64,000 nucleotides of DNA from Curtanaerobium respiraculi (GTDB lineage: Bacteria > Actinomycetota > Coriobacteriia > Coriobacteriales > Eggerthellaceae), in contig NZ_JANIPD030000003.1 in assembly GCF_024609215.1 (NCBI RefSeq), positions 1 through 64,000 of the forward strand, written 5' to 3'. Both the position numbers and the translations under genes were made by a program. The notes beneath the pieces were generated by a model. The model was not told the origin of the DNA. It made no database searches and saw only the letters and a list, made by a program, of their open reading frames with translations. Below, in pieces: positions 1 to 34,285 of the stretch (position 1 is its first letter; every line of letters starts with the position of its first letter).

Positions 1-134
1 TGCCAGACTCCTTTACGAGAAGCGGGGCTCTCACACGAAATGTCGGCAACCCTGCCCGCCAGAATCTGCATTGCATCCACAAGCATTCGATAATCGGCTC
101 GAAAATGCAACGACTAAAAGATAGGAGCTCGGGA

Positions 135-17530: not shown

Positions 17531-17555
17531 GGGGAATCTCCTTGACGGGGGGTGG

Positions 17556-18233: not shown

Positions 18234-18312
18234 GGCTGGGAGTATAGCGTCCCTGCGCGGGAAGTCCCGAGCGTTTACCGTTTCGTTTCCCTCCGAAGAG
18301 CACGCTGGAGCT

Positions 18313-18414
18313 AGGGGAATCCAGGGGAAGCAAGGGGAGGCCAGGGGAGGCCAGGGGAAGCCAGGGGGAAGCCAGAGGAGATCAGGGGAGGCCAGGGGAG
18401 GCCAGGGGGAAGCC
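18313..18414. repeat. low-complexity GGGGAGGCCA-type tandem repeat
   Basis: About nine degenerate copies of a 10-11 base unit (GGGGAGGCCA, GGGGAAGCCA, GGGGGAAGCCA) stand in a row 80 bases upstream of ccdA. Copy number is likely to vary by slippage. Confidence 0.85.
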
Positions 18415-18603
18415 CGACAACGAGGGATCCACCCTGCCATTCACGCGTGGCCGACATTACGGACCGTTCACGCTCCGTTTCATCGGAGCTTTCATAGGGC
18501 GTGGATAGGTTCGCGCCTCGCCTTGCCGTGCAAAATGTGTCGAGCATTGGCCGCATGCGCTTCGTCACATCGGTATGCTCGCTGAGCGTTGGAGTGAAGC
18601 ATC

Positions 18604-19246: not shown

Positions 19247-20191
19247 CTAGGATATTTGATCGCTTTTCCCTTGGTTGAAGCCTTCGGCGTAGGGGCTGGG
19301 AACGACGATGGTTCCATTCGAGTCTTTTACTCCCTCGTTGAGAAGATGAAGTTTGCGGAGTTCGAATGCCGTTGCATCTTTCGAATAAATGCTGCTTGCT
19401 TGATGCAGCATCGACGCGATGTCCCTTTCGACATCTGCGAGCACGATTCGCGCTTCTTTTTCGCGCGCGGCGGTTGCTTCTGCCGCCATAGCGGATTGCA
19501 GGTCTTTGGGAATGACCACATCACGGATTTCCACGGAGATGACCGAGATTCCCCAGGCGGCCGCTTTCTCGTCGATTGCATCCTGCAACTCCTCGTCAAG
19601 TTGCACACGGCTCGTGGCTACTTCGGAGAGCTCGCGTCGGCCGATCGCGTCGCGAAGCGCGGTCTGGGCCGCTAAAGCTACCGAATCATAATAGTCTTCT
19701 ACTTCGATGCAGGCCCGTTGCGGGTCGAATACCGTCCAAAAAAGAACCGCGTCGACGTTCACGGGAACGAGGTCGGCGGTGAGCGTTTCCTCCGCGTTGA
19801 ATCCGGTGAGCATGACTCGTTGATCTGCCCAGAGCGCTACGTGGTCGATGAAGGGAATAGTGAAGAACACCCCCGGACCGGCAGTGCGGGAGTAGCCGCC
19901 GAGCCTTAGCACCACAGCTTTCTCCCACTCGGCCGCTATACGGATGGTGGAGGATGCAAGCATGCCAAGCAGCATTCCGGCGGACAATGCAAAAATGTCC
20001 ACCGTTCCCGTGGACAAATACGCTGCCCCGCAGACCGCAATCAAGACCACCACGAATAGAAACGAAGAGAAGATCGGGCGGGTATTGCGGCTGGCGCGGC
20101 GAATATGGGGGGTGTTGTACGCCTCGATCGCCGTGGCTTCTCGCCGTTCGCTTCGGCGCGAACCCGAGGGTTTCCTATCTCGATTCTTCAT
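19247..20191 (-). CDS. SPFH/band-7 (slipin-like) membrane protein, triad A
   Basis: Two adjacent hydrophobic segments (about residues 37-85) are followed by an SPFH domain: AEWEKAVVLRLGGYSRTAGP, GVFFTIPFIDHV, VNVDAVLFWTVFDP, ALRDAIGRRELSEV and ISVISVEIRDVVIP. A short helical tail ends in VVPSPYAEGF. Such proteins form membrane microdomain rings; their specific task here is unknown. It is last in an NrfD-GntR-SPFH operon and overlaps the GntR gene by 17 bases. The paralogue at 29432-30418 has the same neighbours. Confidence 0.9.
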   Translation of the reverse strand: MKNRDRKPSGSRRSERREATAIEAYNTPHIRRASRNTRPIFSSFLFVVVLIAVCGAAYLSTGTVDIFALSAGMLLGMLASSTIRIAAEWEKAVVLRLGGYSRTAGPGVFFTIPFIDHVALWADQRVMLTGFNAEETLTADLVPVNVDAVLFWTVFDPQRACIEVEDYYDSVALAAQTALRDAIGRRELSEVATSRVQLDEELQDAIDEKAAAWGISVISVEIRDVVIPKDLQSAMAAEATAAREKEARIVLADVERDIASMLHQASSIYSKDATAFELRKLHLLNEGVKDSNGTIVVPSPYAEGFNQGKSDQIS

Positions 20192-20663
20192 AGTAGATCA
20201 CGTTCTCCTGGGCTGGACTTTCGGGTGCGGTATCCATCTTGCCGATAATGCCTTCGATACGATTGCGAATGTCGTTAAAGGACATTCCTTGCGATCGATA
20301 GCGTTTGATGCATGTTTCCTGCAATGCATCGATGGACGTTGCAGGATCTTCGCGGTTGATAATGATGTTTTGAACGTACATACCGCGTCCCCGCACTGAG
20401 ACGATGAGTCCGCTTCTTTCCAGGTCCTTATACGCGCGGGTGACTGTGCTGTAGTTGATGCCGGCGGCGGCAGATAGGCTCCGCACGCTTGGCACCTGCT
20501 CCCCCGGCTCGAAATAGCCCGTACGAATCAGATAGGAGATACGGTTGCGCAATTGCACCCAGATGGGAAGGTCCGAGCTCTCGTCGACCGTGAAAATTTC
20601 CCGTAAGCCGGCTGCGCTGGCCTTCACCTGGTCGTTGTTTCCTGGACTGTATTTCGTCGGCAA
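20175..20663 (-). CDS. GntR family regulator (YtrA type), triad A
   Basis: The 162-residue protein has an N-terminal winged helix (LPIWVQLRNRISYLIRTGYF, PGEQVPSVRSLSAAAGINYS, TVTRAYKDLERSGLI) and a short C-terminal dimerisation segment, which marks the YtrA subfamily. YtrA regulators usually control the operon they sit in, commonly membrane transport genes. It lies one base from the NrfD-like gene upstream and overlaps the SPFH gene downstream. The paralogue is at 28935-29429. Confidence 0.9.
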   Translation of the reverse strand: MPTKYSPGNNDQVKASAAGLREIFTVDESSDLPIWVQLRNRISYLIRTGYFEPGEQVPSVRSLSAAAGINYSTVTRAYKDLERSGLIVSVRGRGMYVQNIIINREDPATSIDALQETCIKRYRSQGMSFNDIRNRIEGIIGKMDTAPESPAQENVIYYEESR

Positions 20664-20664
20664 T

Positions 20665-21537
20665 TCAATGCACCCCGCAGACTATGACGCAGTAACGAAG
20701 CAGAAATCCTCCTACCAAGCAGGCGAAATCGGAAAAGGGGACTGCCCGCCCCTCTTCTGCGAAAGCAAGCGTCCGAATCTCGCTGCCGAAGGGGATGAGG
20801 ATTCCCATACCTAGGGCTCCTATGATGCCCGTCTGAAGTATCGATGGGCTGAGGAGAAGGGCAAGAGATTCGCTTGCTGCCGCTGTGGTGAAAGCATGGT
20901 TGAGGAATGCTGCGAGAAAGACGGTTTCAAAGGCAAGGCCTGCGCAGTGTATGGCGCTCATGGGCCGGATGACATTGGCATGCCGCGCATCATCTGGGTT
21001 GAAATAATCAAGCAACATGACGACAGCGCTTCCCGATGAGAATGATGAGAAGAAGAACAGCGCGACAAGCGTCCATGTTGACCAGAGCGGAACCGATTTG
21101 TTTGCAGCAAGGAAGACACCCGTGTAGATGATCACTCCGCAAGAAAAAACTGCGCAGCAATATTCCAGCACGCGGCGCGCATTGCCGCCTATTGCGTGAA
21201 AGTCGAAGAAGGTCGCAAGGGCCAGCGCACCAGCAAGGATTGCTTCGAGCGACAAAATGAAGGAGCCGATGGACAAAATCGAGAGATGGGGATGGAGAAA
21301 TAGATTGAGGGCGCGCTCGGGCGATCCCAAATCCCAGAGCAAGCAGGCGATGGAGAAAATCAAGAGGACGAATGCCGTCGCATAGCAATTGCTGCGCAGG
21401 GTGTTGAATCCTGCAATTTCGCGGGAGGGGCGTCGGATGCGATGCGCATGGAACAATATGCTCCAAGTGCACGTAACCAAAAGCGCGCCAGCAGCAGCGC
21501 CGCCCAAAAACAGGTATGTGATGATCAGTATTCCGAA
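20665..21537 (-). CDS. NrfD/PsrC-like membrane protein without own catalytic subunit, triad A
   Basis: This protein has about eight to nine hydrophobic segments, beginning LFGILIITYLFLGGAAAGAL, typical of NrfD family quinone-reactive anchors. The TTG start at 21537 is chosen because it follows GAGGAA and matches the GTG start of the triad B paralogue; an ATG at 21612 is an alternative without a ribosome site. No catalytic or ferredoxin gene precedes it on its own strand; instead it is divergent from oxidoreductase operon 2. It heads the triad A operon. Confidence 0.82.
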   Translation of the reverse strand, partial: FGILIITYLFLGGAAAGALLVTCTWSILFHAHRIRRPSREIAGFNTLRSNCYATAFVLLIFSIACLLWDLGSPERALNLFLHPHLSILSIGSFILSLEAILAGALALATFFDFHAIGGNARRVLEYCCAVFSCGVIIYTGVFLAANKSVPLWSTWTLVALFFFSSFSSGSAVVMLLDYFNPDDARHANVIRPMSAIHCAGLAFETVFLAAFLNHAFTTAAASESLALLLSPSILQTGIIGALGMGILIPFGSEIRTLAFAEEGRAVPFSDFACLVGGFLLRYCVIVCGVH

Positions 21538-21679
21538 CAAATCCGCTTGTTCCTCTTCGATTCCGCATGCGATTTTATCCGAGGGGAGGAAATAGTGCAA
21601 TGGTACTTGCATGAACCGGTGAATCGATTTATCATATCACCATATCGGATTGGTCGTGAAGAGACGAGGAGAGAACGAC

Positions 21680-24337
21680 ATGGGGAAGAGAACCGTCAGG
21701 TGTGAACCGCACGGCGTTACGCGGCGCAACTTCCTAAAAGCCTCCGCAGTTTTGGCTGCGGCGGGCGTGAGCGGAGGGTCGCTTGTCGGATGCGGCGAAA
21801 CATCATTGGTGGACACAAACGGCAGGGCAATCGACACCGAAAAAGGGGAGTGGCGCACCGCGGCATGCTGGCATAATTGCGGCGGACGCTGCTTGAACAA
21901 GGTGTTCGTGCAAGATGGCGTGGTCATTCGTCAAAAAACCGACGATACGCACGAAGACAGCGCCGATTGCCCCCAGCAGCGCGGCTGCTTGCGTGGGCGA
22001 GCGCAACGCAAGCAGGTGTTTTCCGAGGATCGGCTCCGCTATCCGATGAAACGCAAGAACTGGAGCCCTGATGATCCCCATGGGGACCTCCGGGGAATCG
22101 ATGAATGGGAGCGAATCAGTTGGGATGAGGCGCTCGATTACGTTGCTGCTGGCTTGAAGAGGGCGAAAGAGCAGTATGGAAATCGCTCTATCATGCTTAT
22201 GGACGGGTGGAGCAGCGAAATCCACGAGATGTCCCGTACATTGGGGTTGTATGGCGGCTATTGCGAATATTGGGACACCAATTCATTCGGCAGCTGGTGC
22301 AAGACCCCCTTTGTCGTGGGATTCGACCATGATGGGGTATGGGATCAGACCGTGAACGATCGGTACGATCTTCGCGAATGCGAGACGATCATCATGATGT
22401 CGATGAACCCCGCATGGAGCGCGACCGGCAGCCAGATGTGGGGCTATTGGCAGGCGAAACTCGCCGGAGCAGAGTTCATTTGCATCGATCCCGCCTATAC
22501 GGACACCTGTTCTGCGCTTGGTGCGGAATGGCTGCCCGTGCGCCCGGCGACCGATACCGCCTTGCTGCTGGGCGTTGCGCACGCGATGCTCGAGCTCGAT
22601 GGAGAATACGATCTCATCGACTGGGATTTTCTCGATCGGTGCACTGTGGGATTCGATGCCGATCATATGCCTGTAGACGCGCGTGAGAACATCAACTTTA
22701 AAGATTATGTGCTGGGTGCTTACGACAACGAGCCGAAAACCCCCGAATGGGCGAGTGAGATCTGCGGCGTTGAAGCGACGAGGATACGCCAGCTCGCTTT
22801 GAAGATGGGCAAGCACAACAAAGTCGCATTCTTGTGCGGGATGGCGTCTGCTCGCGCGAACAACGTTGACAACCTTCCCCAGCTCGTGATGACGATAGGG
22901 GCCATGGGAGGTCATATGGGTAAGTCAGGCCATATGACGGGATCGACCATGCATGCAACTTCGGGGAATGGAGGGCCTGCCCTTATTATGGCCGGCTCGG
23001 ACGGGCTTCCCGCCATCGCCAATCCGGTGGATGATTCCATCAATGCGAACGAAGCGTGGGATGCCGTACTCGAAGGGTCTTACACATGGACCGGTCCTGG
23101 CTCGATGGTGGGGAAGAACCAGTTCGGCCCTGGGGAAAAGCGCGACATCGACATCCATGTCCTCTACCATTGCGGCGGTGCCGGCCTGCAGACCACCAAC
23201 GGCATGGCGCGCGGTATAGAGGCGCATCGTAAAGTCGATATGGTTGTCACGCATGCCCAGTTCTACACGACGAATGCACGGTATTCCGATATTGTCCTGC
23301 CTGTGACCACCGAATGGGAAAAGTTCGGCGGCTTCTCCGGCGGCTCGCTCGTGCATTCCTCTAACCGCGAGATGATGATTGCGTACGAACAGGTGGTCGA
23401 GCCTCTTTTCGAATGCAAGTCGGATCAAGAGATCGCAATGCTCATCGGCGAGCGCCTGGGTATCGATGGATCGAAGATCTACCCCTTCGATGCGAAGCAG
23501 CAGTACTTCAACGCCCTTTCCTCGATGACGACCATCGATGAAGATGGGAAAACCAAGGTGAATGCCGTCGCCATAACGGCGGACGATATCGAAGAGATGG
23601 GCGTGAAGGGGGATCCCCAGGAGGGCAAGCTGGCTTATGAGGAGCTGAAGAAGCGAGGGGTGTACCAGGTGATGCGCCATCAAGGCGATAATTACGGATA
23701 CATCGCATTCAAGGATTTCCGCGAAAACCCCTTTGGCAACCCCCTGAAGACTCCATCGGGTAAGTTGGAGATCTATAGCCAGACCTTGGCGGACATGATC
23801 AATCAAATGGGATACAGCCGCATCAAGCCCATTCCCACGTACATCACCGTGACGAACGGCTATGAAGATACGTTCAGCAATTGGGACTCGCAGGACAAGG
23901 GCGAATATCCCCTTCAGCTCATCAACCAGCATTATCTGCGCCGCGCGCACACTGTGTTCGACAACGTAGGCTGGTTGCGCGAGGCTTGGACCAATCCGGT
24001 GTTCGTAAGCGCGAAAGACGCTCAGGCCATTAACGTGAAAGACGGAGATACCGTCTTAGTGTCCAGCCCGTATGGGAAAACCATCCGGAATGCCTGCGTA
24101 ACGCAGCGAATGAGGCCCGGCGTAGTCGGTCTGCCCCATGGGGCATGGGTCGACGTGGATGAAAAATCCGGCATCGACCAGGCAGGAGCCGATAATTTCC
24201 TCACCGGCCTCGTGCCGAACGGTCAAGGAGTTTCCGGGTTCAACTCCAATATATGCAAAATCGAGAAATATACGGGAGAGCAGCTTAAGGCCGACGCGGA
24301 TATGCCGGCCCGCATCCCCCTGAAGGACGGTGAGTAA
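21680..24337 (+). CDS. Tat-exported molybdopterin oxidoreductase (DmsA-like), operon 2
   Basis: This 885-residue catalytic subunit starts with a twin-arginine signal TRRNFLKAS; the following LVGC resembles a lipobox. The 4Fe-4S motif is CWHNCGGRC, completed by a Cys in QQRGCLRGRAQRK. The molybdenum-ligand region reads GGYCEYWDTNSFGSW, where the Ser aligns with the ligand Ser of DmsA (G-T-Y-S). RPGTD-type and GTPS-type pterin-binding segments appear as VRPATDTALLLG and KTPSGKLEIYS. The ATG at 21680 follows AGGAGAG. Downstream in order are ferredoxin, DmsC anchor, TorD and a second ferredoxin. Substrate is unknown but DMSO/TMAO-like N- or S-oxides are conceivable. Confidence 0.92.
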   Translation: MGKRTVRCEPHGVTRRNFLKASAVLAAAGVSGGSLVGCGETSLVDTNGRAIDTEKGEWRTAACWHNCGGRCLNKVFVQDGVVIRQKTDDTHEDSADCPQQRGCLRGRAQRKQVFSEDRLRYPMKRKNWSPDDPHGDLRGIDEWERISWDEALDYVAAGLKRAKEQYGNRSIMLMDGWSSEIHEMSRTLGLYGGYCEYWDTNSFGSWCKTPFVVGFDHDGVWDQTVNDRYDLRECETIIMMSMNPAWSATGSQMWGYWQAKLAGAEFICIDPAYTDTCSALGAEWLPVRPATDTALLLGVAHAMLELDGEYDLIDWDFLDRCTVGFDADHMPVDARENINFKDYVLGAYDNEPKTPEWASEICGVEATRIRQLALKMGKHNKVAFLCGMASARANNVDNLPQLVMTIGAMGGHMGKSGHMTGSTMHATSGNGGPALIMAGSDGLPAIANPVDDSINANEAWDAVLEGSYTWTGPGSMVGKNQFGPGEKRDIDIHVLYHCGGAGLQTTNGMARGIEAHRKVDMVVTHAQFYTTNARYSDIVLPVTTEWEKFGGFSGGSLVHSSNREMMIAYEQVVEPLFECKSDQEIAMLIGERLGIDGSKIYPFDAKQQYFNALSSMTTIDEDGKTKVNAVAITADDIEEMGVKGDPQEGKLAYEELKKRGVYQVMRHQGDNYGYIAFKDFRENPFGNPLKTPSGKLEIYSQTLADMINQMGYSRIKPIPTYITVTNGYEDTFSNWDSQDKGEYPLQLINQHYLRRAHTVFDNVGWLREAWTNPVFVSAKDAQAINVKDGDTVLVSSPYGKTIRNACVTQRMRPGVVGLPHGAWVDVDEKSGIDQAGADNFLTGLVPNGQGVSGFNSNICKIEKYTGEQLKADADMPARIPLKDGE

Positions 24338-24339
24338 TC

Positions 24340-24939
24340 ATGCCGAGCGTCTCGAATTTCAGCCGGTTGGGCTTTTACTTCAATCAGAATGCGTGCATCG
24401 GATGCCGGACCTGCCAAATAGCGTGCAAGGATAAAAACGACCTGCCCGTAGGTACCGTTTATCGCCGCGTTCACAGCTTCGAGGCGGGGTCGTTCCCCGT
24501 TCCGGCCGTCTACCATTACTCGGCGACTTGCAACCACTGTGAGCATCCTGCCTGTGTTGCCGGTTGCCCGACCGGTGCTATGCACGTCTCCGAGGACGGT
24601 ACGGTGCAGCACGACGACGAGCGGTGCATCGGATGCAGATATTGCGTTTGGAATTGCCCTTACGACGTGCCGCAGTACCATCCGGAATCAGGCATCGTGG
24701 GCAAGTGCGATGCGTGTGCGGATCTGAGGGCCGCCGGAGGGGACCCCGCCTGCGTCGACGCGTGTGTGATGCGGTGCTTGGAGTTCGGACCTCTCGATAC
24801 GCTCCTTGCCGAGCATGCAGGTGAGGATTTGACCGACAAGCTTGTTATCTTGCCTGATCCAACGAAAACCAATCCTTCCATACTTATCGATCCGCGTCCC
24901 GCAGCCCTTGCGGGTGATTTTGCGGAAAAGGAGATGTAG
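24340..24939 (+). CDS. four-cluster ferredoxin subunit (DmsB), operon 2
   Basis: Four cysteine clusters are present: CIGCRTCQIACKDKND, CNHCEHPACVAGCP, CIGCRYCVWNCP and CDACADLRAAG with CVDACVMRC. The last group has the DmsB-like spacing. It starts 2 bases after the catalytic gene and 2 bases before the anchor gene. It is 199 residues long and strongly similar to the second ferredoxin at 26591-27172. Confidence 0.95.
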   Translation: MPSVSNFSRLGFYFNQNACIGCRTCQIACKDKNDLPVGTVYRRVHSFEAGSFPVPAVYHYSATCNHCEHPACVAGCPTGAMHVSEDGTVQHDDERCIGCRYCVWNCPYDVPQYHPESGIVGKCDACADLRAAGGDPACVDACVMRCLEFGPLDTLLAEHAGEDLTDKLVILPDPTKTNPSILIDPRPAALAGDFAEKEM

Positions 24940-24941
24940 CC

Positions 24942-25772
24942 ATGCACGATATTCCCCTGCTTGCATTCACCTGCGGTCTTGAAGTCGCCGTCGGCGTGCT
25001 TGCCATCGTTACCATCGCGTCATTCGTCGATGATCGGGAAGGCTACAAGACCGCTGCTTGCGTTTCCGCGGCATGCGCTCTTGCGGCTATGCTTGCTTCC
25101 CTCTTCCATCTGGGCGTTCCCACTCGCGCCATTCTTGCCATCACCGGGTTCGGATCATCTCCTCTCAGCAATGAAATCGTTCTCGTGGGCGCCTTCGCCG
25201 CGCTTGCGGTGCTCTATGCGGTTCTTGGGTTCCTGCCCAAGGTTGATACGCGCATCAAGAAGGTTGTCGCGGTGCTCGGTTCGTGCGTCGGTTTCGCCTC
25301 TTTGATCGCCGTTGGCATCGCATATGCGAATGCCGAGGTTCCTCTTTGGGATAGCATGAGCACGTATATCGAGCCCATTACCGCAGCGCTGTCTTGCGGC
25401 GCTGTTATTTTCCTCGCACTCTATTTCAAAAAGATAAACAGCACCATGATGCGCATCGCGGGCACGATAGCGATAGCCGCGGTTGTGCTGCAGGTTGCTT
25501 ACGCCGTGCCTGATTATGCGGGATTGGCTTTAGGCGCAGGAGCGGCCGCCTCGTCCGCACAGGTCATTGCCTCTTCGAGCTCCGCGCTCGCCGCTGGCTG
25601 GGTTCTTGTGGGCGCCGGAGTGTCATTGTCGGCGTGGCAAGTTGCGCACGGCGACAATGTCGGGGGCGTCGGTATGGCATGGGGGGCTGCGGGCGCTCTC
25701 ACCATCGGACAGATCATCGTCCGATTCTTCTTCTACGCAGCAATGGTCACCACTGCTGTCGGGTTGCTCTAA
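24942..25772 (+). CDS. DmsC-type membrane anchor, operon 2
   Basis: This 276-residue protein has eight hydrophobic segments and DmsC family features: a Leu-rich first segment, SLFHLGVPTRAILAITGF, and GSSPLSNEIVLVGAF, the conserved SPLSxE segment. It would oxidise menaquinol and pass electrons to the ferredoxin. AAGGAG precedes the start. It is followed by a hairpin at 25782-25821. Confidence 0.93.
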   Translation: MHDIPLLAFTCGLEVAVGVLAIVTIASFVDDREGYKTAACVSAACALAAMLASLFHLGVPTRAILAITGFGSSPLSNEIVLVGAFAALAVLYAVLGFLPKVDTRIKKVVAVLGSCVGFASLIAVGIAYANAEVPLWDSMSTYIEPITAALSCGAVIFLALYFKKINSTMMRIAGTIAIAAVVLQVAYAVPDYAGLALGAGAAASSAQVIASSSSALAAGWVLVGAGVSLSAWQVAHGDNVGGVGMAWGAAGALTIGQIIVRFFFYAAMVTTAVGLL

Positions 25773-25781
25773 ATTGCATGT

Positions 25782-25821
25782 GCGGGGCGTTTTTTTCGGA
25801 CAATTTGCCAAAACGCCCCGC
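25782..25821 (+). terminator. 12-bp stem-loop between dmsC and torD of operon 2
   Basis: GCGGGGCGTTTT pairs with AAAACGCCCCGC around a 16-base loop that begins TTT. It lies between the anchor gene and the chaperone gene. It may act as a partial terminator or a processing site that lowers chaperone expression. Confidence 0.6.
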
Positions 25822-25855
25822 ATCTGTTGTCGCTGTGCATTTCAGGAGGGCTCCG

Positions 25856-26545
25856 ATGAATTACGACGATATGGGAATGTTGTTGGAGGCAAGGGCGTTT
25901 GCCTACCATGCAATGCATGCTATTTTCGGCATGGAACCCTCTGAAGATTCATTGAAGGTATATCAAGAGGGAGTTTTTTCCGATTTGGGGGCGATTCTCG
26001 ACGATGAAGGCTTCGAGGATGCTTCAAGCGCGATGATCGATCTGGAGCAAGCCGCTCGGTTTGCTGCAGATGTCGACATGCTCGTTTCAGCCTATACGCT
26101 GATGCTTATCGGACCGGGCGAGCTGCCTGCCTCACCCTGGGAATCTACGTATCGGTCCAACGAGCGAGTACTTTTTCAGGAAAGCACCCTCGATGTGCGC
26201 AAGGCATATGTTTCCCAGGGACTCATTCCCGCAGGCTACCCGCACGTGGCGGATGATCATATTTCGATCGAATGCGACTTCCTTGCAAAAATGGGAGACC
26301 GGATATCCGAAGCGTACGGAATGAAGGATGGCTTGAAATTAGCAGAGCATGCGAAGACGTCGAAGATTTTTCTCGACAAACATCTGCTCACCTGGGTCGG
26401 GCGATTTAGAAACGGCCTTTGTGCGTGTGATGTTCCTTCCCGGAATCCGGCAGGAACATTCTACGTGAGAGCCGCTACTGCATTGGCGCAGTTTGCTGCA
26501 GCGGACAGCGTGCTTCTCGAGCGTCTGCCCCGTATGACTGCATAG
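25856..26545 (+). CDS. TorD/DmsD family chaperone, operon 2
   Basis: This all-helical cytoplasmic protein of 229 residues should bind the Tat signal of the operon's catalytic subunit and hold it until cofactor loading. Family marks are ASPWESTYRSNERVLFQEST and DDHISIECDFLAKM, which correspond to the conserved P-x-x-S-x-Y and D-H-x-x-x-E-x-x-F segments. The ATG at 25856 follows AGGAGGG, and longer upstream readings are not used. Confidence 0.93.
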   Translation: MNYDDMGMLLEARAFAYHAMHAIFGMEPSEDSLKVYQEGVFSDLGAILDDEGFEDASSAMIDLEQAARFAADVDMLVSAYTLMLIGPGELPASPWESTYRSNERVLFQESTLDVRKAYVSQGLIPAGYPHVADDHISIECDFLAKMGDRISEAYGMKDGLKLAEHAKTSKIFLDKHLLTWVGRFRNGLCACDVPSRNPAGTFYVRAATALAQFAAADSVLLERLPRMTA

Positions 26546-26590
26546 CTTGCGGCTGTTCCGCTATACTCCCGTACCGGGGAGGTGCTGGAT

Positions 26591-27172
26591 ATGGGATGCC
26601 TGGGGTTTTATTTCAATATGCAAGCATGCATCGGATGTCGCACATGCCAAATAGCGTGCAAGGACAAAAACGATCTGCCCCTTGGAATTTTCTATTGCCG
26701 CGTTCGCTCTTTCGAAGCGGGCTGCTTTCCTGAACCCAGTGTTTTCAATTTTTCAGCCGCATGCAATCATTGTAAGAGTCCAGGGTGCGTCCGCGCGTGT
26801 CCGACAGGTGCGATGTCCATTGCCGTCGACGGCACCATCCAGCATGACGATGAACTTTGCATAGGATGTCGATCTTGCGTGAGCATGTGCCCTTATGACG
26901 TGCCACAGTTCTTCGAAAGGGCGGGCATCGTGGGGAAGTGCAATGCCTGCATAGATTTACGCGAGGTGGGAGAAAATCCCGCTTGCGTGGATGCGTGTGT
27001 CATGCGTTGCCTGGAATTCGGCGATATCGAAGAACTGCGGCGGCGGCATGCGAACGAAAATCCCGTTGCGGAACTACCGTTTTTGCCCGATCCGGAAATC
27101 ACGAGCCCTTCGCTGCTCGTGAACCCGTCCCCAGATGTGAATCGCGGCGAAGTCGTAGAGAAGACCCTGTAA
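26591..27172 (+). CDS. second DmsB-like ferredoxin subunit, operon 2
   Basis: This is a 193-residue paralogue of the ferredoxin at 24340-24939, with CIGCRTCQIACKDKND, CNHCKSPGCVRACP, CIGCRSCVSMCP and CNACIDLREVG. All sixteen ligand cysteines seem present. It follows the chaperone by 45 bases with its own GGGGAGG site and has no matching catalytic gene after it. It could replace the first subunit, serve an orphan catalytic subunit elsewhere, or serve the orphan NrfD at 27987. A GTG at 26582 is in frame but overlaps the ribosome site. Confidence 0.9.
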   Translation: MGCLGFYFNMQACIGCRTCQIACKDKNDLPLGIFYCRVRSFEAGCFPEPSVFNFSAACNHCKSPGCVRACPTGAMSIAVDGTIQHDDELCIGCRSCVSMCPYDVPQFFERAGIVGKCNACIDLREVGENPACVDACVMRCLEFGDIEELRRRHANENPVAELPFLPDPEITSPSLLVNPSPDVNRGEVVEKTL

Positions 27173-27219
27173 GTTTCGTTCATTGCCTATTCATTGTGAT
27201 TTTCTCAATGTTGACTAAT

Positions 27220-27484
27220 GAGCCAACTTCGAGGGTTTCTAGCATTTGTGGAAGCTGGACGCCCGAATATCGCGGTTGGCGCGCCAACTTCGCGGGTTTC
27301 TAATCTTTTTTGCAGCTTGCACTCTGGTTGTGAAATTCCCCACGCAAATTTGAGCTGGGGTTATGTGGATTCGAACGCGAGAGTCAGCTCTCCAAAAAGT
27401 TGGAAACCCTCGAAGTTGGCTCCGAAGGGCCTGTTTTTCTCCGTTCAGCTTCCGGAAAGGCTAGAAACCCTCAAAGTTGGCGCA
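27220..27484. repeat. 265-bp dispersed repeat, copy 2
   Basis: This is the direct counterpart of 18685-18949. Motif positions are clear here: direct arms at 27222-27241 and 27283-27302, inverted arms at 27402-27420 and 27461-27481, all versions of CCAACTTCGAGGGTTTCTA or its complement. The outer pair and the inner pair can form nested stems. The gap 27173-27562 holds nothing else recognisable. Confidence 0.88.
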
Positions 27485-27562
27485 GCGCCCCCGTTTCAAA
27501 CGCAAGGAATCTGAAATTCTGCAGGGGGGTTTCCGCTTTAAGGAGACCAATGCAGCCGATGC

Positions 27563-27831
27563 TTAGCAGGGGGCCCGCTGCGGGACAAGTGCGAGAACGT
27601 GGACCTTGTCGGCCTCGGGAAGATATTCGCAGATGATATCGAATGGGTCGATGACGAATTTCCGTACGTTCTTCCCATACGTCAACTGAATTGGATTCGG
27701 CAGGTTCCGCGAGCCAAGTTCGGGGGGCCTGATAGCAGATCGATGGCGAAGAAGATCTCATCCCTCTTGCTTTCAGGTCGAATGCCGGTCATATCTTCGA
27801 TGAATTGCTCGGTGTAAATGAGCTTAGGCAT
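27563..27831 (-). pseudogene. frameshifted RelE/ParE-type toxin
   Basis: On the minus strand MPKLIYTEQFIEDMTGI and the next ~30 residues lead into a run of six C, after which the homology continues one frame over with NPIQLTYGKNVRKF, IDPFDIICEYLP and VHVLALVPQRAPC before a stop. Adding one base restores an 89-residue toxin. Upstream, a short frame ending in ARDEVERRIHHA overlaps the start and looks like the tail of a truncated antitoxin. The module is dead unless the frameshift is a sequencing error in the homopolymer. Confidence 0.7.
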
Positions 27832-27941
27832 GGTGGATGCGCCGTTCAACCTCGTCGCGGGCGGACGCCGTACCTTCGTAGATGTTGCCGGCGGCCGACT
27901 CCGTGGCGAGCAGCCTCCAGAAGCCTCTAGTACTTGCGGCG

Positions 27942-27968
27942 TGTCATATGATATTTTGTCGTATGACA
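27942..27968 (+). promoter_or_regulatory. palindromic operator upstream of triad B
   Basis: TGTCATA and TATGACA bracket a 27-base inverted repeat ending 18 bases before the NrfD start. It contains TTGTC-GTAT-GACA and a weaker TGTC-ATAT-GATA, the same box type found twice upstream of operon 3 (31066-31101). It could bind the triad's GntR protein or a CRP/FNR-type factor. Confidence 0.6.
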
Positions 27969-27986
27969 GCATAGGGAAGGCGGGGT

Positions 27987-28922
27987 GTGTTCGGCGAGCT
28001 GGTCATAGCGTATTTGTTCCTTGGCGGCATGGGGGCGGGCGCCCTTGCCATCGGCTCGTTGGGAACCCTGCTTGTTCCCCGCGACGAAGTGGCGGTGCGG
28101 CGCTCGACCATCAACGGGCGGGCAACCCGAACGGTGCTTTACGTTCCTGCGCCCTACCAGAAGCTGTTCGGCCCGACGCTCGCCGCCTCGTTTATAGCCC
28201 TTGCCATCGGATCGATCGCCCTCTCCGTCGATTTGGGCCAGACGAATCGCGCGGAGCTTCTGTTCCTGTTGCCGCAACCGACATTCATGACATTGGGGGC
28301 GTATTCCCTCGCACTCGCCCTCGCGCTGTGCGCGCCGCTCGCTGCCGCTTGGGCTTTGCCCCACTTGCATCTGCGCTATTGGGTCGTCCGCACGCTCGCA
28401 GTACTCGCCGTCGCCGACGGTGTTGTCGTGATGCTGTATACGGGCCTTCTCCTATCCGACATGCAGGCTATTCCCTTGTGGAACACGCCTTGGCTGCCCC
28501 CGCTGTTCGTTGCGAGCGCGCTTTCGTGCGGCAGCGCGCTTATGCTGGGGACGTCCGTTTTCACAGGGGCCATAGGCCTTTTCGAGTCGTCGATCCGCAG
28601 GCTCATGAAGCTCGACATCGTTTTGCTGGTGGTCGAGGCGGTTCTCGCCGCCTGCTTCATTGCTGCGTCGTGGAAAGCCCCTTTTGCGGTGGCGGCGGTT
28701 GGCTCAGCAAGCCTGCTCCACGGGGAACTCGCCCCGGTGTTCCTGGCCGGTTTCGTCGGATGCGGAATCGGCATACCCGTGCTTGCGGAAGGGTACGAGC
28801 TTGCGGCCAGAGGCCACTACCAGGTTGCCTCCCTCATCGCCTCCACGGCTGTTTTCGTGGGTGGGATCGCGTTGCGGTATTCGATCGTGATGGCGGGCAT
28901 ACGCCCGGAAGTTTGGATATAA
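27987..28922 (+). CDS. NrfD/PsrC-like membrane protein, triad B
   Basis: This 311-residue protein begins at GTG with MFGELVIAYLFLGGMGAGAL, matching the triad A protein's LFGILIITYLFLGGAAAGAL. About eight hydrophobic segments follow. It heads a plus-strand operon with a GntR gene (12 bases on) and an SPFH gene. No catalytic subunit is adjacent; the nearest ferredoxin is the spare one at 26591. Its electron partner is therefore unknown. Confidence 0.88.
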   Translation: MFGELVIAYLFLGGMGAGALAIGSLGTLLVPRDEVAVRRSTINGRATRTVLYVPAPYQKLFGPTLAASFIALAIGSIALSVDLGQTNRAELLFLLPQPTFMTLGAYSLALALALCAPLAAAWALPHLHLRYWVVRTLAVLAVADGVVVMLYTGLLLSDMQAIPLWNTPWLPPLFVASALSCGSALMLGTSVFTGAIGLFESSIRRLMKLDIVLLVVEAVLAACFIAASWKAPFAVAAVGSASLLHGELAPVFLAGFVGCGIGIPVLAEGYELAARGHYQVASLIASTAVFVGGIALRYSIVMAGIRPEVWI

Positions 28923-28934
28923 GGAGAGATGCGC

Positions 28935-29429
28935 ATGGCGCGCGATGATGCAAAGACGTTCAAGTTCGAAGTCGATCCAAAGAGCGACCTGCCCCTGTGG
29001 GTTCAGCTGCGCAACCGCCTTGCCCATCTGATAACCAACGGGTTCTACAAGCCGGGCGACCAGCTTCCGACGGTGCGGGCTTTGGCGGCGGACATATCCA
29101 TCAACTACAACACGGTGAACAAAGCCTATTTGGATCTGAAATCGCAGGGGTATATCGAATCGAGTCGAGGACGGGGCGCCTTCGTGCGCGAGGTGGACGT
29201 CGAGGTCGACAAGGAGTACTCGCAGCAGGTCGGCATGATCATGGATGAGTGCGTGGCATCGTGCCGCGAATTGGGAATGTCGCTCGACGACATCGCCAAA
29301 TGCATGGATGCGAAGATATTGCAGATCAAGCGCGGCGAAGGGCTTGCGAACCCCGAAGACGGATCCGGCGGTCGCATCATCACCATCGAAATCGGAGGAA
29401 GCGAGCATGCATCGGAAGCGGGAGCGTAG
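28935..29429 (+). CDS. GntR family regulator (YtrA type), triad B
   Basis: The winged-helix domain (LPLWVQLRNRLAHLITNGFY, PGDQLPTVRALAADISINYN, TVNKAYLDLKSQGYI) is followed by a short helical tail with CRELGMSLDDIAKCMD. It is close in layout to the triad A GntR, whose tail has R-S-Q-G-M-S-F-N-D-I. The ATG at 28935 sits 8 bases after AAGGAG; an ATG at 28929 is too close. The SPFH gene starts 2 bases after its stop. Confidence 0.9.
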   Translation: MARDDAKTFKFEVDPKSDLPLWVQLRNRLAHLITNGFYKPGDQLPTVRALAADISINYNTVNKAYLDLKSQGYIESSRGRGAFVREVDVEVDKEYSQQVGMIMDECVASCRELGMSLDDIAKCMDAKILQIKRGEGLANPEDGSGGRIITIEIGGSEHASEAGA

Positions 29430-29431
29430 CC

Positions 29432-30418
29432 ATGGGGTTGCATCGGAGGAATGACTTGAGGCCGGATGAGGGCGGGCGACGTGCGCATCCGAGGCGCTTG
29501 CAGGTGAAGCCCGACATCGCGACGGAGATCGTGGGGGAGCGGGCGTCGAATACCGGGGTCGTGCTGTTCTCCACCGTCGTGTTCGCGGTGGTGGCGGGGC
29601 TGGTCATGCTCGCGTTCAAGTTCGCATCGCCTGCGGGAATTAATCTGACGGCGATCATCATCGCCGTTGTCATCGCGTCGCTCGCAACCCTGTCCGTGCA
29701 TATCGCGGAGCAGTGGGAGAAGGTCGTCGTTCTGCGGCTGGGGAAGTTCGACCGGGTGGCGGGTCCCGGATTGTTCTTCACCATCCCCGTGATCGAAAGC
29801 CCCACGATCCGCATCGACAGCCGCGTGCGCGTGACCACGTTCGGGGCGGAGGAGACGCTGACAAGCGATTTGGTGCCACTCTATGTTGACGCCGTGCTGT
29901 TCTGGATGGTGTACGACGCGAAAGCCGCCTGCACCGAGGTGGGCGATTTCACTCGGGCGGTGGAGATGGCGGCGCAGACCGCCCTGCGCGATGCCATCGG
30001 CCGCGGCGAGGTGGCGCAGGTTGCCATCAGGCGCGACCAGCTCGATCGCGAACTGAAGCAGGCGCTCGAGGACAAGGCGTCGGAGTGGGGCGTGACCATC
30101 CTTTCCGTGGAGGTTCGCGACATCGTGCTGCCCGAGAAACTGCAGGATGCGATGTCGTTGGAGGCTCAGGCCGAGCAGCGCAAGAAGGCGCGCATCATTC
30201 TGATGGAAGCCGAGCAGGACATCGAGGAGATGCTTTCCGAGACAGGCCGGGGCTATGCGGAGAACGAGGAGGCTTTACGCCTACGCGCCATGCACCTTCT
30301 GTACGAGAGCATCCGAGAAACCGGCGGGACCGTGGTGGTGCCCAGCAGCTTCAGCGAGGGTTTCGGCGATGTTCTTCCGAAGGATGCTGCCGATGCTTTG
30401 GGTAAGATAGCGAAATAA
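29432..30418 (+). CDS. SPFH/band-7 (slipin-like) membrane protein, triad B
   Basis: Two N-terminal hydrophobic segments (about residues 40-90) precede an SPFH domain with AEQWEKVVVLRLGKFDRVAG, PGLFFTIPVIES, YVDAVLFWMVYDAK, ALRDAIGRGEVAQV and VTILSVEVRDIVLPEKLQ. The tail ends in VVPSSFSEGFGDVLPKD, comparable with the triad A ending. The N-terminal 35 residues are basic and differ from triad A. GGAG precedes the ATG at 29432. Confidence 0.9.
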   Translation: MGLHRRNDLRPDEGGRRAHPRRLQVKPDIATEIVGERASNTGVVLFSTVVFAVVAGLVMLAFKFASPAGINLTAIIIAVVIASLATLSVHIAEQWEKVVVLRLGKFDRVAGPGLFFTIPVIESPTIRIDSRVRVTTFGAEETLTSDLVPLYVDAVLFWMVYDAKAACTEVGDFTRAVEMAAQTALRDAIGRGEVAQVAIRRDQLDRELKQALEDKASEWGVTILSVEVRDIVLPEKLQDAMSLEAQAEQRKKARIILMEAEQDIEEMLSETGRGYAENEEALRLRAMHLLYESIRETGGTVVVPSSFSEGFGDVLPKDAADALGKIAK

Positions 30419-30451: not shown

Positions 30452-30721
30452 ATGCCAAAATGCGTACCAGTGAGCGATTTAAAGGACACCGTTTCATTTT
30501 GCGAAAAGGTTGAAACCGCTGGAGAACCGGTGATTGTAACGAAAAACGGGTACGAGCGGTTTGTCGCCATCGATGCGGAGCTCTTCCGATCCTATCGCAA
30601 GGAGACGCCTGAAGAACATCTGGAACGTCTCCTGCAGGAACCCGATCGTGACATTCGCGCGAGGCGTGTTTCCGATATGAACGTGGGACTCTCTGAGCTC
30701 AGGGCGCAGTATGGCCTATAA
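30452..30721 (+). CDS. Phd/YefM family antitoxin
   Basis: This 89-residue protein has the Phd fold: MPKCVPVSDLKDT, then GEPVIVTKNGYERFVAID. The C-terminal half is charged and probably binds the toxin. Its last 11 bases overlap the start of the ParE-like toxin gene. A good site (AAGGGGG) precedes the ATG. Confidence 0.9.
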   Translation: MPKCVPVSDLKDTVSFCEKVETAGEPVIVTKNGYERFVAIDAELFRSYRKETPEEHLERLLQEPDRDIRARRVSDMNVGLSELRAQYGL

Positions 30722-31022
30722 GGTTATTTGGACGAACAGCGCACGTGCGGATGCCGAGTCGATCATCCGCTATATAGCGGTGGATTTAGACAGCCCGAGT
30801 GCCGCGGTAGAGCATCTTGATGCATTCGAGGATGCTGCACGGGAGATGGGTGAGAATCCGCTGCTGCATGCTGTTTCGGCCTTGCCTTCATTAGAGTTGC
30901 GTGCTTTGCGTCCCTGCTTCGTCAAGCGATATGTGGTGCTCTATTCCTTCGACGGCGACCAGGTGACTGTGCATCGCATCTTTCACATGCTTCAGGACTA
31001 TGCGAAGATCATCGAAAGATAG
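30711..31022 (+). CDS. RelE/ParE family toxin
   Basis: This 103-residue protein starts MAYKVIWTNSARADAESIIR, continues YIAVDLDSPSAAVEHLD and ends with YVVLYSFDGDQVTVHRIFHM, the standard ParE/RelE layout. Whether it attacks gyrase or mRNA cannot be told from sequence. It is coupled to the antitoxin by overlap. Confidence 0.9.
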   Translation: MAYKVIWTNSARADAESIIRYIAVDLDSPSAAVEHLDAFEDAAREMGENPLLHAVSALPSLELRALRPCFVKRYVVLYSFDGDQVTVHRIFHMLQDYAKIIER

Positions 31023-31065: not shown

Positions 31066-31101
31066 TGTCCTATGACAACTCTTGTTTGTCATAGGACAAA
31101 T
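31066..31101 (+). promoter_or_regulatory. tandem TTGTC-N4-GACAA boxes upstream of operon 3
   Basis: TGTCCTATGACAA (31066-31078) and TTGTCATAGGACA (31086-31098) are exact reverse complements. Each half is itself a TGTC-N4-GACA palindrome; the second extends to TTTGTC-ATAG-GACAAA. The layout resembles paired CRP/FNR-family sites. They lie 110-145 bases before the catalytic gene and just after the toxin-antitoxin pair. Confidence 0.7.
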
Positions 31102-31210
31102 TGGTATCATCGCCCTAACAAGATTTTGGCCGGATCTTACAGACGAGAGAATGCCGCGCCGGGGCATGCGCAAACCTTCGCGAGCGGCGATTCGAACATC
31201 GGGAGGAAAG

Positions 31211-33646
31211 ATGTCGAAGAAAAGCTTGGACGCCTCGATTTCGCGCCGTGGCTTTCTAAAAGCGGCAGGTGTAGCCGGGGCATTGGGCTTGGCCGGGGCA
31301 GGTGCGATGACCACCGCCGACGGATGGCTGGCACCTGCGAGTGCCGCGGCAGAGCCGGAGGAAAAAGTATCATATCTTTATCACAGGGACCACTGCGGTT
31401 GCCACTGCTCGCTCAAATGCACAGTGCGCGACGGCAGAGTTTGCTTTATGGAGCCAAATGATGCCTATCCTGATCCAAAATATCGTAGGATTTGCGCTAA
31501 AGGAATCGCAGAGATTCAGCATATCTATAGCGCAGACAGGATTCAGACCCCCCTTAAACGCATTGGTGATCGCGGAGAGGGAAAATTTGAATCTATTAGT
31601 TGGGATGAAGCCTACGATATCCTAAAAACGAAAATCGAAGATACGTGGAATGCCTACGGTCACGAGGCAGTATTCGTAAATTGCGCATCCGAGCCAAGGC
31701 CAATGTACCCATTTCTACCTGCAGTGTTGGGTGCAGCTACACAAGGGGCTGTTGGAATTGATATGGGCTTGGGAAATGGTGTGGATGATGCCTATGGCTC
31801 AAGCAAGGGAACGACGGATTCGCCTGGTGAGTATCTGCAGTGTGGGGCTGGATGGAACAGGCCCACTAATGAGCCAAGAGATTTGATTAACTCAAAATTT
31901 ATCCTAATGGTGGGGAATAATGTATTAACGAGTGTTCTCTGCCACGGATACAAGTTTTTCGATGCTCAAGACGCTGGAGCTCATACAGTTGCTGTCGACC
32001 CCCAGTACTCTTTAGTTGCCTCTAAATGCGACGAATGGGTTCCTATTGAACCAGGTACGGATGCTGCTCTCTACCTGGGAATGGCTTCAGTAATTATTGA
32101 CAAGAAACTGTATGACGAAGCCTTTATGAAAGCCCGAACGGCATTTCCGTTTTTGGTGAACCGGGAAACGGGAGAGCAACTCACCTTGGGTGAGTCGGTT
32201 CCGGAAGGGAAAAATCACGCAGGCGATTATGTGGTTTGGGATAATTCGATCCAATCTGCGGTTAGGCATAACCTTGCGGTCGATCCTGCGCTGTCTGGAA
32301 CATTTATAATTGATGGGGTTAGCTATCAAACGGTTTTCGATCTTTTCGTTGAAAGCGAAAAAACTTACAACGTCGAGTGGGCTGCAAAGAAAACAGCTAT
32401 CCCTGCTGAGAAAATCACTAGCATAGCCGAGGAATATGCGAAGAGTGGGGCATCGGCGATCGTTACCGGTTACGGTGGCAACGATAAAATGTCGAATGCT
32501 GACGTGGTCGGTCATGCTCTCGTTATGCTTCCCGCCCTTACGGGTAATATCGGGAAGCCAGGTGCTCTTATCGGGAGTTTCGCTGATGGGTTCCATGGCT
32601 ATGCCGCATCTCTCGGGTCTTGGAAGTTCCCCGACGGAATGAAAGCCGCAACGCCGAAAGTCAAGGTTTTTGAAATGCCGCGTAAGGAAAGCGGTATTCA
32701 TACAGTAATCGGTGTAGGCGATTTCGTTTTGAATAGGATGCCAAACTTCAACAGTTCGGTGGAATGGATACAGGGTCTCGATTTCTTCTGTGCAATTGAT
32801 ATGTACCACACAACATACGTTGACTATGCAGATTTGGTTTTGCCCGCATGTACTCCTTTCGAAAACGAAGAGCCTTATGCGGGTCTTGAGGCCTATGGAG
32901 GACATGTCCTTCTGCGCGAGAAGGCGCTGGATCCTATGTTTGAGAGCAAATCCGATTATCGTATTCAAATCGAGATATCTGAGCTATTTGGGAAACGAGA
33001 AGCTCTTCCGAGAACGCAAGAAGAATACATCAGGTATTGCCTTGACACTTCGACCGACGAAACGATAAAAGGAATTTCGCTCGATACCCTCGTGCAGCAC
33101 CAAGGCGTGCAGCCTCAATCTTGCCAAGAAACATTCCGCAGGTCATTTGTCAACCGATTTGGAACACCGAGCGAAAAGCTCGAGGTCTATTATCAGAAAC
33201 TGCTTCCCTATAAATTGGCTCTTCCTGTTTGGGTTGCGCCCAATGAAATAGAAAACGAAGAGCTGAAGAAGCGGTATCCCCTCAAGATGTGCTATTACAA
33301 ATCAAAACTTCGAGTTCACAATCAATTTTGGGATGCAACATGGTTGAACCAGTACGAAGAAGCACACTGCGAGATGAATCCATTTGAGATGAAGTCCAGA
33401 AACATGAGTGCAGGTGACGAAGTCCGAATCTTTAACGATCGAGGAGATTGTGTCACGCGAGTGTTTCCCAATGATGGAGTAAGGACAGGAAGCATTCGCA
33501 TGTTTTCAGGGGTATGGAATAGGTGTTTCAAATCCGGAGGATTTCAGAGCTTATCTAACGACCATGAAGAAGACCGCGCGGCTGTTTTGAAGATGGGGCC
33601 TAACATTCCATTTAACGACACCCTTGTTGAAGTTGAGAGAGTGTAG
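31211..33646 (+). CDS. Tat-exported molybdopterin oxidoreductase, operon 3 catalytic subunit
   Basis: This 811-residue subunit has the signal SRRGFLKAAG, the 4Fe-4S motif HCGCHCSLKC with a Cys in RICAKG, and an overall layout like operon 1. The ligand region reads G-I-D-M-G-L-G-N-G, shared with operon 1. The ATG at 31211 follows GGAGGAAAG; the frame is open upstream to 31082 without coding character. The first ~150 bases and the regions outside the gene are GC-rich, but from about 31365 onward codons are markedly A/T-rich until about 33850, inside the next gene. A segmental replacement by DNA from a lower-GC relative is inferred. Substrate is unknown. Confidence 0.92.
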   Translation: MSKKSLDASISRRGFLKAAGVAGALGLAGAGAMTTADGWLAPASAAAEPEEKVSYLYHRDHCGCHCSLKCTVRDGRVCFMEPNDAYPDPKYRRICAKGIAEIQHIYSADRIQTPLKRIGDRGEGKFESISWDEAYDILKTKIEDTWNAYGHEAVFVNCASEPRPMYPFLPAVLGAATQGAVGIDMGLGNGVDDAYGSSKGTTDSPGEYLQCGAGWNRPTNEPRDLINSKFILMVGNNVLTSVLCHGYKFFDAQDAGAHTVAVDPQYSLVASKCDEWVPIEPGTDAALYLGMASVIIDKKLYDEAFMKARTAFPFLVNRETGEQLTLGESVPEGKNHAGDYVVWDNSIQSAVRHNLAVDPALSGTFIIDGVSYQTVFDLFVESEKTYNVEWAAKKTAIPAEKITSIAEEYAKSGASAIVTGYGGNDKMSNADVVGHALVMLPALTGNIGKPGALIGSFADGFHGYAASLGSWKFPDGMKAATPKVKVFEMPRKESGIHTVIGVGDFVLNRMPNFNSSVEWIQGLDFFCAIDMYHTTYVDYADLVLPACTPFENEEPYAGLEAYGGHVLLREKALDPMFESKSDYRIQIEISELFGKREALPRTQEEYIRYCLDTSTDETIKGISLDTLVQHQGVQPQSCQETFRRSFVNRFGTPSEKLEVYYQKLLPYKLALPVWVAPNEIENEELKKRYPLKMCYYKSKLRVHNQFWDATWLNQYEEAHCEMNPFEMKSRNMSAGDEVRIFNDRGDCVTRVFPNDGVRTGSIRMFSGVWNRCFKSGGFQSLSNDHEEDRAAVLKMGPNIPFNDTLVEVERV

Positions 33647-33655
33647 GTGATTTTG

Positions 33656-34273: not shown

Positions 34274-34285
34274 GAAGTGATTGAA

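Follow-up and report, generated by a model that had tools for sequence, protein, structure and literature searches.

What is the function of a gene triad that occurs twice, in the same order, on one contig of Curtanaerobium respiraculi? The window analysed here is a whole stretch of 64,000 nucleotides (positions 1 to 64,000 of NZ_JANIPD030000003.1, assembly GCF_024609215.1). In it, genes for an NrfD-type membrane protein, a GntR regulator of the YtrA type and an SPFH/slipin protein follow each other in cassette A on the reverse strand and again in cassette B on the forward strand. The species belongs to the Eggerthellaceae, a family whose numerous respiratory reductases transform drugs as well as compounds from the diet and the host. 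For some of these enzymes, 12-transmembrane LuxR regulators explain the switching. On balance, we favour the reading that the triad is a portable control cassette, which would give each respiratory enzyme operon equipped with it a dedicated YtrA-type repressor as its switch, with SPFH and NrfD as membrane-side partners. If this is true, there is a second class of dedicated reductase switch, present at 71 loci in 15 sampled genomes, and the ill-understood but widespread SPFH proteins gain a concrete partner, a transcription factor.

Cassette A reads leftward from NrfD (20665 to about 21540; PF03916, 84 bits) through GntR (20175-20663; PF00392, 52 bits; 172 bits with the cassette-type profile A1), which has a short C-terminal tail, to SPFH (19247-20191; PF01145, 122 bits). 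There is a 1-base gap between the first two genes and a 17-base overlap between the last two. Judged by eye, the NrfD gene probably starts at the TTG at 21540, the ATG at 21612 being another possible start. Cassette B reads rightward from NrfD (27987-28922; PF03916, 76 bits; 8 long helices) through GntR (28929-29429; PF00392, 54 bits) to SPFH (about 29432-30418; PF01145, 125 bits; a stomatin in the PDB at E 2e-33). The gaps are of 6 bases and, if the SPFH gene begins at the ATG at 29432, of 2 bases; a later SPFH start is possible. A preliminary description of this DNA had placed two such triads here and called their proteins paralogous but well diverged. Both points were confirmed, since all six genes match Pfam models above the gathering cut-offs, and A and B share 30% identity in NrfD, 38% in GntR and 44% in SPFH.

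GntR_A and GntR_B (162 and 166 amino acids) have the N-terminal GntR winged helix above the PF00392 cut-off, followed by 65 and 80 residues past the helix-turn-helix (HTH) with no other domain and a variable last part, in line with the reduced C-terminal domain of about 50 residues in the YtrA subfamily. The solved structural relatives of GntR_B are 6sbs, 4ham and 3neu, which we take to be YtrA-labelled proteins. SPFH_A and SPFH_B combine the SPFH domain with an N-terminal hydrophobic segment (the segment was seen by eye), as slipins and stomatins do. The cassette NrfD has both the PF03916 match and the eight-helix NrfD fold. A predicted model of NrfD_B (pLDDT, predicted local distance difference test, 92) is closest in fold to alternative complex III subunit C and to PsrC; a PDB sequence search with NrfD_B or its profile gave no match. 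An alignment of 19 NrfD sequences has 18 invariant columns, including Y150 and E216.

Recurrence and co-evolution of the cassette

Is the triad peculiar to this strain? The whole genome has three Band_7 matches, each within an NrfD-GntR-SPFH triad; the third copy (copy C, locus L001), on another contig, runs ferredoxin-NrfD-GntR-SPFH behind two sulfite-oxidase-type genes. A contig scan with GntR_B found 67 loci. Coriobacteriia records account for 65 of these, which rules out a duplication local to this strain. The two others (L067, L068) are weak Firmicutes matches with GntR below 100 bits and were left out of the counts. The order NrfD-GntR-SPFH is found in 59 of the 65; of the six exceptions, L014 has a fragmentary NrfD, NrfD comes last in L057 and L061 and is absent from L062 and L065, and L066 runs into a contig end.

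When 119 Coriobacteriia genomes were searched with a GntR profile, 71 matches scored at least 131 bits, and the next score was 91 bits, a gap of 40 bits. These 71 cassette GntRs lie in 15 genomes, 14 of Eggerthellaceae and one of another family, with 11, 8, 7, 6, 6, 6, 5, 5, 4, 4, 3, 3, 1, 1 and 1 cassettes per genome; two further Eggerthellaceae genomes among the 119 lack the cassette. Across the phylum, a 396-genome sample searched at E up to 1e-24 gave 99 bits at best outside Eggerthellaceae. The genome of another family of the class (G022) has one complete cassette with a reductase (L154), which was possibly transferred or is possibly ancestral. Examination in full covered the 68 cassettes outside the own genome, which adds 3. 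SPFH adjoins GntR in all 71 (68/68 and 3/3), and NrfD lies within 2.3 kilobases (kb) in 65 (62/68 and 3). On the same strand, the order over the 68 is NrfD-GntR-SPFH in 54, NrfD-SPFH-GntR in 7 and GntR-SPFH in 7. After identical GntR stretches had been dropped, 136 oriented loci became 126, and SPFH lies within 1.6 kb of GntR in every one of them. As controls, lower-scoring GntRs had an SPFH gene near by in 0 of 10 cases from the phylum (stretches of 7-13 kb) and in 1 of 15 from the class (stretches of 3.3-3.4 kb), this one being weak (L097, 71 bits). Seen from the SPFH side, 70 of 95 Band_7 matches in 17 genomes (one protein counted as two pieces) are cassette SPFHs by position. An extra match at the start of contig C46 of G047 may be the remainder of the 71st, cut by the contig end.

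What stands beside the cassette? A DMSO (dimethyl sulfoxide)-reductase-type catalytic gene lies within 7 kb in 61 of the 68. The preliminary description had supposed that regulator and scaffold replace the catalytic and ferredoxin partners usual for NrfD, which this result contradicts. Among the other seven, four (L118, L119, L120, L126) have sulfite-oxidase-type genes between SPFH and ferredoxin-NrfD, assigned by Pfam for L118 and by homology for the other three; one (L123) has a flavoprotein exported by twin-arginine translocation (Tat), of the FAD_binding_2 family; two (L130, L133) end at contig ends. The DMSO-reductase-type partners themselves are diverse, 104 of them forming 36 single-linkage clusters at 50% identity. 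Since enzymes of all three kinds are seen as neighbours, the cassette is a companion of respiratory enzymes in general and not of one enzyme. The claim of the preliminary description that the triad has been kept as a unit is supported by the census, in which it recurs widely beside molybdoenzymes in Eggerthellaceae.

Could the triad be mere clutter of reductase-rich regions, spread by recent duplication and without function as a unit? Eggerthellaceae are indeed rich in such enzymes, and the 15 genomes with cassettes have at least 398 PF00384 matches between them. From these counts an enzyme of the DMSO-reductase type would be expected beside about 10 of 71 cassettes by chance, while 63 of 71 have one. 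Moreover, the proteins of A and B are only 30-44% alike, the gene order is kept across genera, and the permutation maxima of the mirror trees described below stay under 0.18. Clutter is therefore highly improbable.

Do the members of the triad evolve together? Mirror trees were made for the 100 of 126 loci that have all four proteins, the fourth being the enzyme's catalytic subunit (MoA). The correlation of distances is 0.74 for GntR-SPFH, 0.73 for SPFH-NrfD and 0.62 for GntR-NrfD, and 0.32-0.46 for each of the three with MoA, SPFH-enzyme being 0.38. In trees with outgroups, a single clade (support 0.95) unites all 126 cassette SPFHs and takes in two additional SPFHs of their type. All 126 cassette GntRs likewise share a clade with a single outsider (0.92), and of 116 NrfDs, 110 fall in a pure clade (0.96). 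The copies of the own genome are each other's relatives in GntR and SPFH; in NrfD this is true of A and B, while the third copy stands apart. As the six remaining NrfDs belong elsewhere, GntR and SPFH are the core pair and NrfD is exchangeable. At L195 (7029-8439) a cassette-type SPFH follows a stretch whose likeness to GntR is confined to the C-terminal part; it is probably a decayed cassette, since only this tail-like stretch precedes the SPFH.

Predicted operators and target operons

If the cassette is a switch, where would its regulator bind? For groups B and A the operators and their targets are strongly predicted from sequence. Predicted operator B is a palindrome of 33 base pairs (bp), TGTCCTATGACAA-N7-TTGTCATAGGACA, at 31066-31098 between SPFH_B and operon 3. 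It overlies the promoter-like TTGTTT (31082), 17 bp and TATCAT of that operon, and each arm has the form GT-N6-AC, fitting the general GntR consensus quoted in PMC4494728. Where a core-B cassette has its enzyme downstream, the motif is present in 37 of 41 cases, while shuffled sequences give 0.0; the pattern was widened after viewing sites, a stricter first pattern having matched 26 of 56 loci. Of 44 sites, 40 include or border on TTGnnn-16..18-TAnnnT, while shuffling the stretches concerned gives 4.5; a repressor bound at such a site would thus mask the promoter. At symmetric position 1 the two arms read G/G in 25 sites and A/A in 18 and are mixed in 1; at symmetric position 4 they read C/C in 19 and A/A in 18 and are mixed in 7. 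Such symmetric covariation fits the site of a dimer.

SPFH and the predicted operator lie 24 to about 2,700 bp apart, owing to insertions of other DNA, whereas no more than a few hundred bases separate the site from the enzyme. The insert in the window is a toxin-antitoxin pair on the forward strand between cassette B and operator B, a Phd/YefM antitoxin (30452-30721; PF02604, 31 bits) and its partner, a ParE-type toxin (30711-31022; PF05016, 50 bits). Genome-wide, the 15 cassette genomes were scanned with up to 2 mismatches (reversed control 0), and the pattern was found at a single place in 7, the own genome among them. In 6 of these 7 it lies within 3 kb of a group-B GntR; in G049 it lies on another contig, directly 5' of a PF00384 gene (C56:5118). 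In G065 the GntR of the group-B locus is at C1:2828109 and the predicted operator at C1:2826443. Upstream of cassette B itself, TGTCATATGA-N7-TCGTATGACA (27942-27968; 9 of 10 arm positions symmetric) is a predicted autoregulatory site. Of 44 core-B loci, 31 have a related site 5' of NrfD, where shuffling gives 0.1; the pattern used was chosen after viewing sites. On the 3' side of operator B, at about 31130-31140, a GGAATTTGGCCAA-like stretch, GATTTTGGCCG in the window, recurs in many loci and is perhaps a second regulatory element or leader.

Predicted operator A is a 24-bp palindrome, GGTG-N16-CACC, at 21618-21641 in the intergenic space from which NrfD_A and the catalytic gene MoA2 diverge. 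It is the single match in the window, where 0.05 is expected. Among 124 loci, GGTGA-N14-TCAC[CT] occurs 5' of NrfD in L106, L152 and L165 only (0.25 in shuffles); there too the enzyme operon is divergent, with about 1.1-1.3 kb of other sequence between MoA and NrfD. In another paralog group a TATGAC-N5-GTCATA dyad stands 5' of the cassette in 8 of 12. Both predicted palindromes of the window, of 33 and 24 bp, are long and lie by the own or the neighbouring operon, as is usual in the YtrA subfamily.

Two other candidates were rejected. One operator universal to all paralogs was discarded since the B motif occurs in 1 of 30 loci below 163 bits. The 16-mer TGTTTCACGTGAAACA, seen 5' of some reductase operons, has more than 100 occurrences in three of six genomes, which disqualifies it as a cassette operator; we take it to be the parS sequence. 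Its exact counts are 130 in G065, 109 in G049, 108 in G029, 25 in G069, 7 in G097 and 3 in G000, with 0 for the reversed control, and parS sites usually number from a few to about 20 per bacterial genome. Among the matches listed for G065, many lie near coordinate 0 and others are scattered, also 5' of reductase operons.

Which operons would be the targets? Triad A would act on the divergent operon 2 (21680-26545) and triad B on operon 3 (31211-35461). Operon 2, on the forward strand, begins with MoA2 (21680-24337), a DmsA-like molybdopterin catalytic subunit with a Tat signal (PF00384, 112 bits; best NCBIfam model dmsA_ynfE, 505 bits, under its cut-off of 778). It continues with a DmsB-like 4Fe-4S subunit (24340-24939; TIGR02951, 199 bits, under the cut-off of 214), a DmsC-type anchor (24942-25772; PF04976, 71 bits) and a TorD/DmsD-type chaperone (25634-26545; PF02613, 81 bits), whose true start lies downstream of 25634. 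A second DmsB-like ferredoxin follows (26582-27172, forward; TIGR02951, 183 bits, under the cut-off of 214), so that MoA-DmsB-DmsC-TorD-ferredoxin stand between the triads. The preliminary description had tentatively lent this ferredoxin, read from 26591, to triad B. Nothing observed links the two, and the gene, 36 bp past torD, is the tail of operon 2 rather than a part of cassette B. Operon 3, on the same strand, has a Tat-exported catalytic subunit of the DMSO-reductase superfamily (31211-33646; PF00384, 132 bits; start codon from the sequence), for which none of the listed NCBIfam models exceeds its cut-off, a 4Fe-4S subunit (33647-34273; DsrO model, 185 bits, under the cut-off of 200) and its own NrfD/DsrP/PsrC-type anchor (34277-35461; PF03916, 152 bits; DsrP model, 152 bits, cut-off 350). 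Although the two triads are indeed oriented as mirror images, as the preliminary description had it, they are most simply seen not as framing one operon but as two modules side by side, A divergent from its own partner operon (21680 onward) and B running towards its own (31211 onward). Transcriptional control, which that description had not proposed, is the clearest predicted function of the cassette.

Mechanism and rival explanations

How might such a switch work? A dimeric GntR repressor would sit on the long palindrome at the promoter of the adjacent reductase operon, and in copy B it would also bind near the promoter of the cassette and so repress itself. Repression is favoured over activation since operator B overlies a -35-like box. 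As paralogous cassettes have different palindromes, each switch would answer to its own enzyme. What signal could it receive? According to a view quoted in PMC6746942, the YtrA tail probably has no ligand pocket. With tails thought too short for one, the signal would most likely come by contact, through SPFH, which would hold the repressor at the membrane or release it and thereby set the expression level. NrfD would be the link to quinone and electron transfer, either as an anchor of the enzyme or as a sensor of the quinol pool or the enzyme state; from the eight-helix fold like PsrC, NrfD_B may report the quinone state or just anchor the enzyme. Taken to its furthest, this reading would be a new kind of membrane-to-DNA signalling: a ring of SPFH, responding to a quinone-binding NrfD or to the respiratory complex directly, would capture and let go a dedicated GntR repressor, and each enzyme would thereby report its state and govern its own expression. 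With up to 11 copies of the unit per genome, every copy would have a separate operator code and enzyme. This full scenario is tentative, and we would sooner expect parts of it to fail than all of it to hold.

Would the membrane proteins instead be parts of the enzyme complex? GntR would still control the reductase, while SPFH would be an assembly or protection chaperone like HflK/C, or a scaffold, and NrfD an anchor, all co-expressed under the repressor. In 12 of 68 cassettes NrfD comes after the catalytic and iron-sulfur genes, where a usual anchor would be, and no second NrfD intervenes; in L104 and L155 it is fdhD, not an anchor, that comes next after the iron-sulfur subunit, and SPFH proteins form domed rings at membranes (PMC12624060). 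(That L104 and L155 are formate dehydrogenases was rejected: the catalytic subunit of L155 scores best with the NCBIfam model PhsA, at 249 bits against a cut-off of 694, and reaches 132 bits with Fdh-alpha, both under the cut-offs.) Yet SPFH tracks GntR in 71 of 71 cassettes, even where NrfD is absent or swapped and the enzymes are wholly different, and the distances of SPFH follow those of GntR far more closely than those of the enzyme (0.74 versus 0.38). This explanation is a serious one, and somewhat unlikely.

There is also the proposal of the preliminary description, a membrane redox module of NrfD, SPFH and an orphan ferredoxin that organises or senses quinone-linked respiration independently of the neighbouring enzymes. 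The NrfD fold with its 8 helices is intact, a ferredoxin adjoins NrfD in copy C and its relatives, and a link to quinone respiration is likely. That the module stands alone is very doubtful: only 2 of 68 cassettes lack an oxidoreductase gene, both cut by contig ends, and the predicted operators of groups B and A sit on enzyme operons.

Several observations weigh against the cassette as a general membrane-informed switch. First, NrfD is more than 2.3 kb away or missing in 6 of 68 cassettes, and 6 of 116 NrfDs, that of the own third copy included, come from other NrfD lineages, so that a general sensing role of NrfD is weak. Further, 25 of 44 cassettes with a downstream enzyme have a second NrfD there, and the cassette NrfD is thus often not the sole anchor. 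Second, clear operators are predicted for groups A and B, and in part for a third group; dyads in most other paralog groups are weaker, few or absent, and a palindrome search locus by locus outside group B gave many unrelated hairpins. Away from the core the B motif falls to 6 of 15 loci at 163-181 bits, and still lower below 163 bits, as given above. Within core B the motif as written was not found at L019, L022, L032 and L041, and the genome-wide pattern had no match in 8 of the 15 cassette genomes. Of the group-B cassettes without a match, the site of G033 differs in spacing and that of G107 is not recognisable. Third, the contact of GntR and SPFH is argued from adjacency and co-evolution, which also suit a shared operon without contact, and another regulator possibly acts on the same promoters. 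An extension of the switch to the other paralog groups would go by analogy with B and A.

Relation to known systems and neighbouring genes

Is anything like the cassette known? The YtrA subfamily, with B. subtilis YtrA and YtrASa of Sulfolobus, is similar: its GntR proteins are short and show no obvious effector domain, they share operons with membrane proteins, and they have few targets and a long inverted repeat. YtrASa acts through a 32-bp inverted repeat to repress its own operon and a single membrane-protein locus (PMC6746942), and the GGTG-N16-CACC of a Xanthomonas YtrA-like protein, quoted there, has the exact form of operator A. Known YtrA operons mostly encode ABC transporters (PMC4494728), which are usual but not universal, or a putative membrane protein; the cassette has no ABC transporter genes, its partners being SPFH and NrfD. 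Unlike known YtrA systems, it has a respiratory reductase as target and exists in many paralogous copies.

In Eggerthella lenta, the 12-transmembrane LuxR regulators DadR, CadR and HcdR control reductases, and like the cassette they are locus-specific regulators, expanded in Coriobacteriia beside molybdenum-dependent enzymes (PMC9734109). They differ in that a membrane domain is fused to the DNA-binding domain and that they activate (PMC9734109), while the cassette has a soluble GntR and separate membrane proteins. A LuxR HTH fused to 10-12 helices is absent from the cassette, whose GntR HTH lies in proteins of 162-166 amino acids. The main text of PMC9734109 mentions GntR, SPFH, band 7 and NrfD nowhere. 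Genetic tools exist for E. lenta (PMC9734109), and the predicted operators could be tested there at once. Comparable to the cassette SPFH is Cac6 of the E. lenta cgr cluster, an SPFH protein noted next to a reductase operon, with which an interaction has been suggested (PMC5953540); it is a single case, the regulator named in that paper is LuxR-type, and GntR goes unmentioned there. Complexes of the Psr/Phs/Nrf type share the NrfD fold (PsrC, alternative complex III) and have catalytic and 4Fe-4S subunits nearby. To our knowledge, these units have no dedicated GntR and SPFH pair.

PspA of Bacillus subtilis is not known as a DNA-binding repressor, nor is a respiratory enzyme known to belong to the YdjG/H-YdjI-PspA system. 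Its likeness to the cassette proposal is that the SPFH protein, together with partner membrane proteins, recruits PspA, a stress-response protein, to the membrane (PMC8581546). A description of the cassette was not found in the literature searched, whose coverage leaves out most subscription journals; the nearest are the cgr-side SPFH and the LuxR regulators.

Some neighbours in the window may be added. Some slipins have an NfeD protease as their gene neighbour; the two SPFH genes of the window adjoin GntR, a DsbD-like gene and the toxin-antitoxin pair. A GntR-type gene at 40444-41919 (491 amino acids) is divergent from a further molybdopterin enzyme at 42040. It was considered as a membrane-bound relative of the cassette regulator and rejected, since by eye it looks like a MocR-type protein with an aminotransferase-like part; Pfam gives only the GntR domain. 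On the other side, a glycoside hydrolase family 30 gene (15492-16820) lies among the redox operons and adjoins thioredoxin-like and DsbD-like genes (16934-18440).

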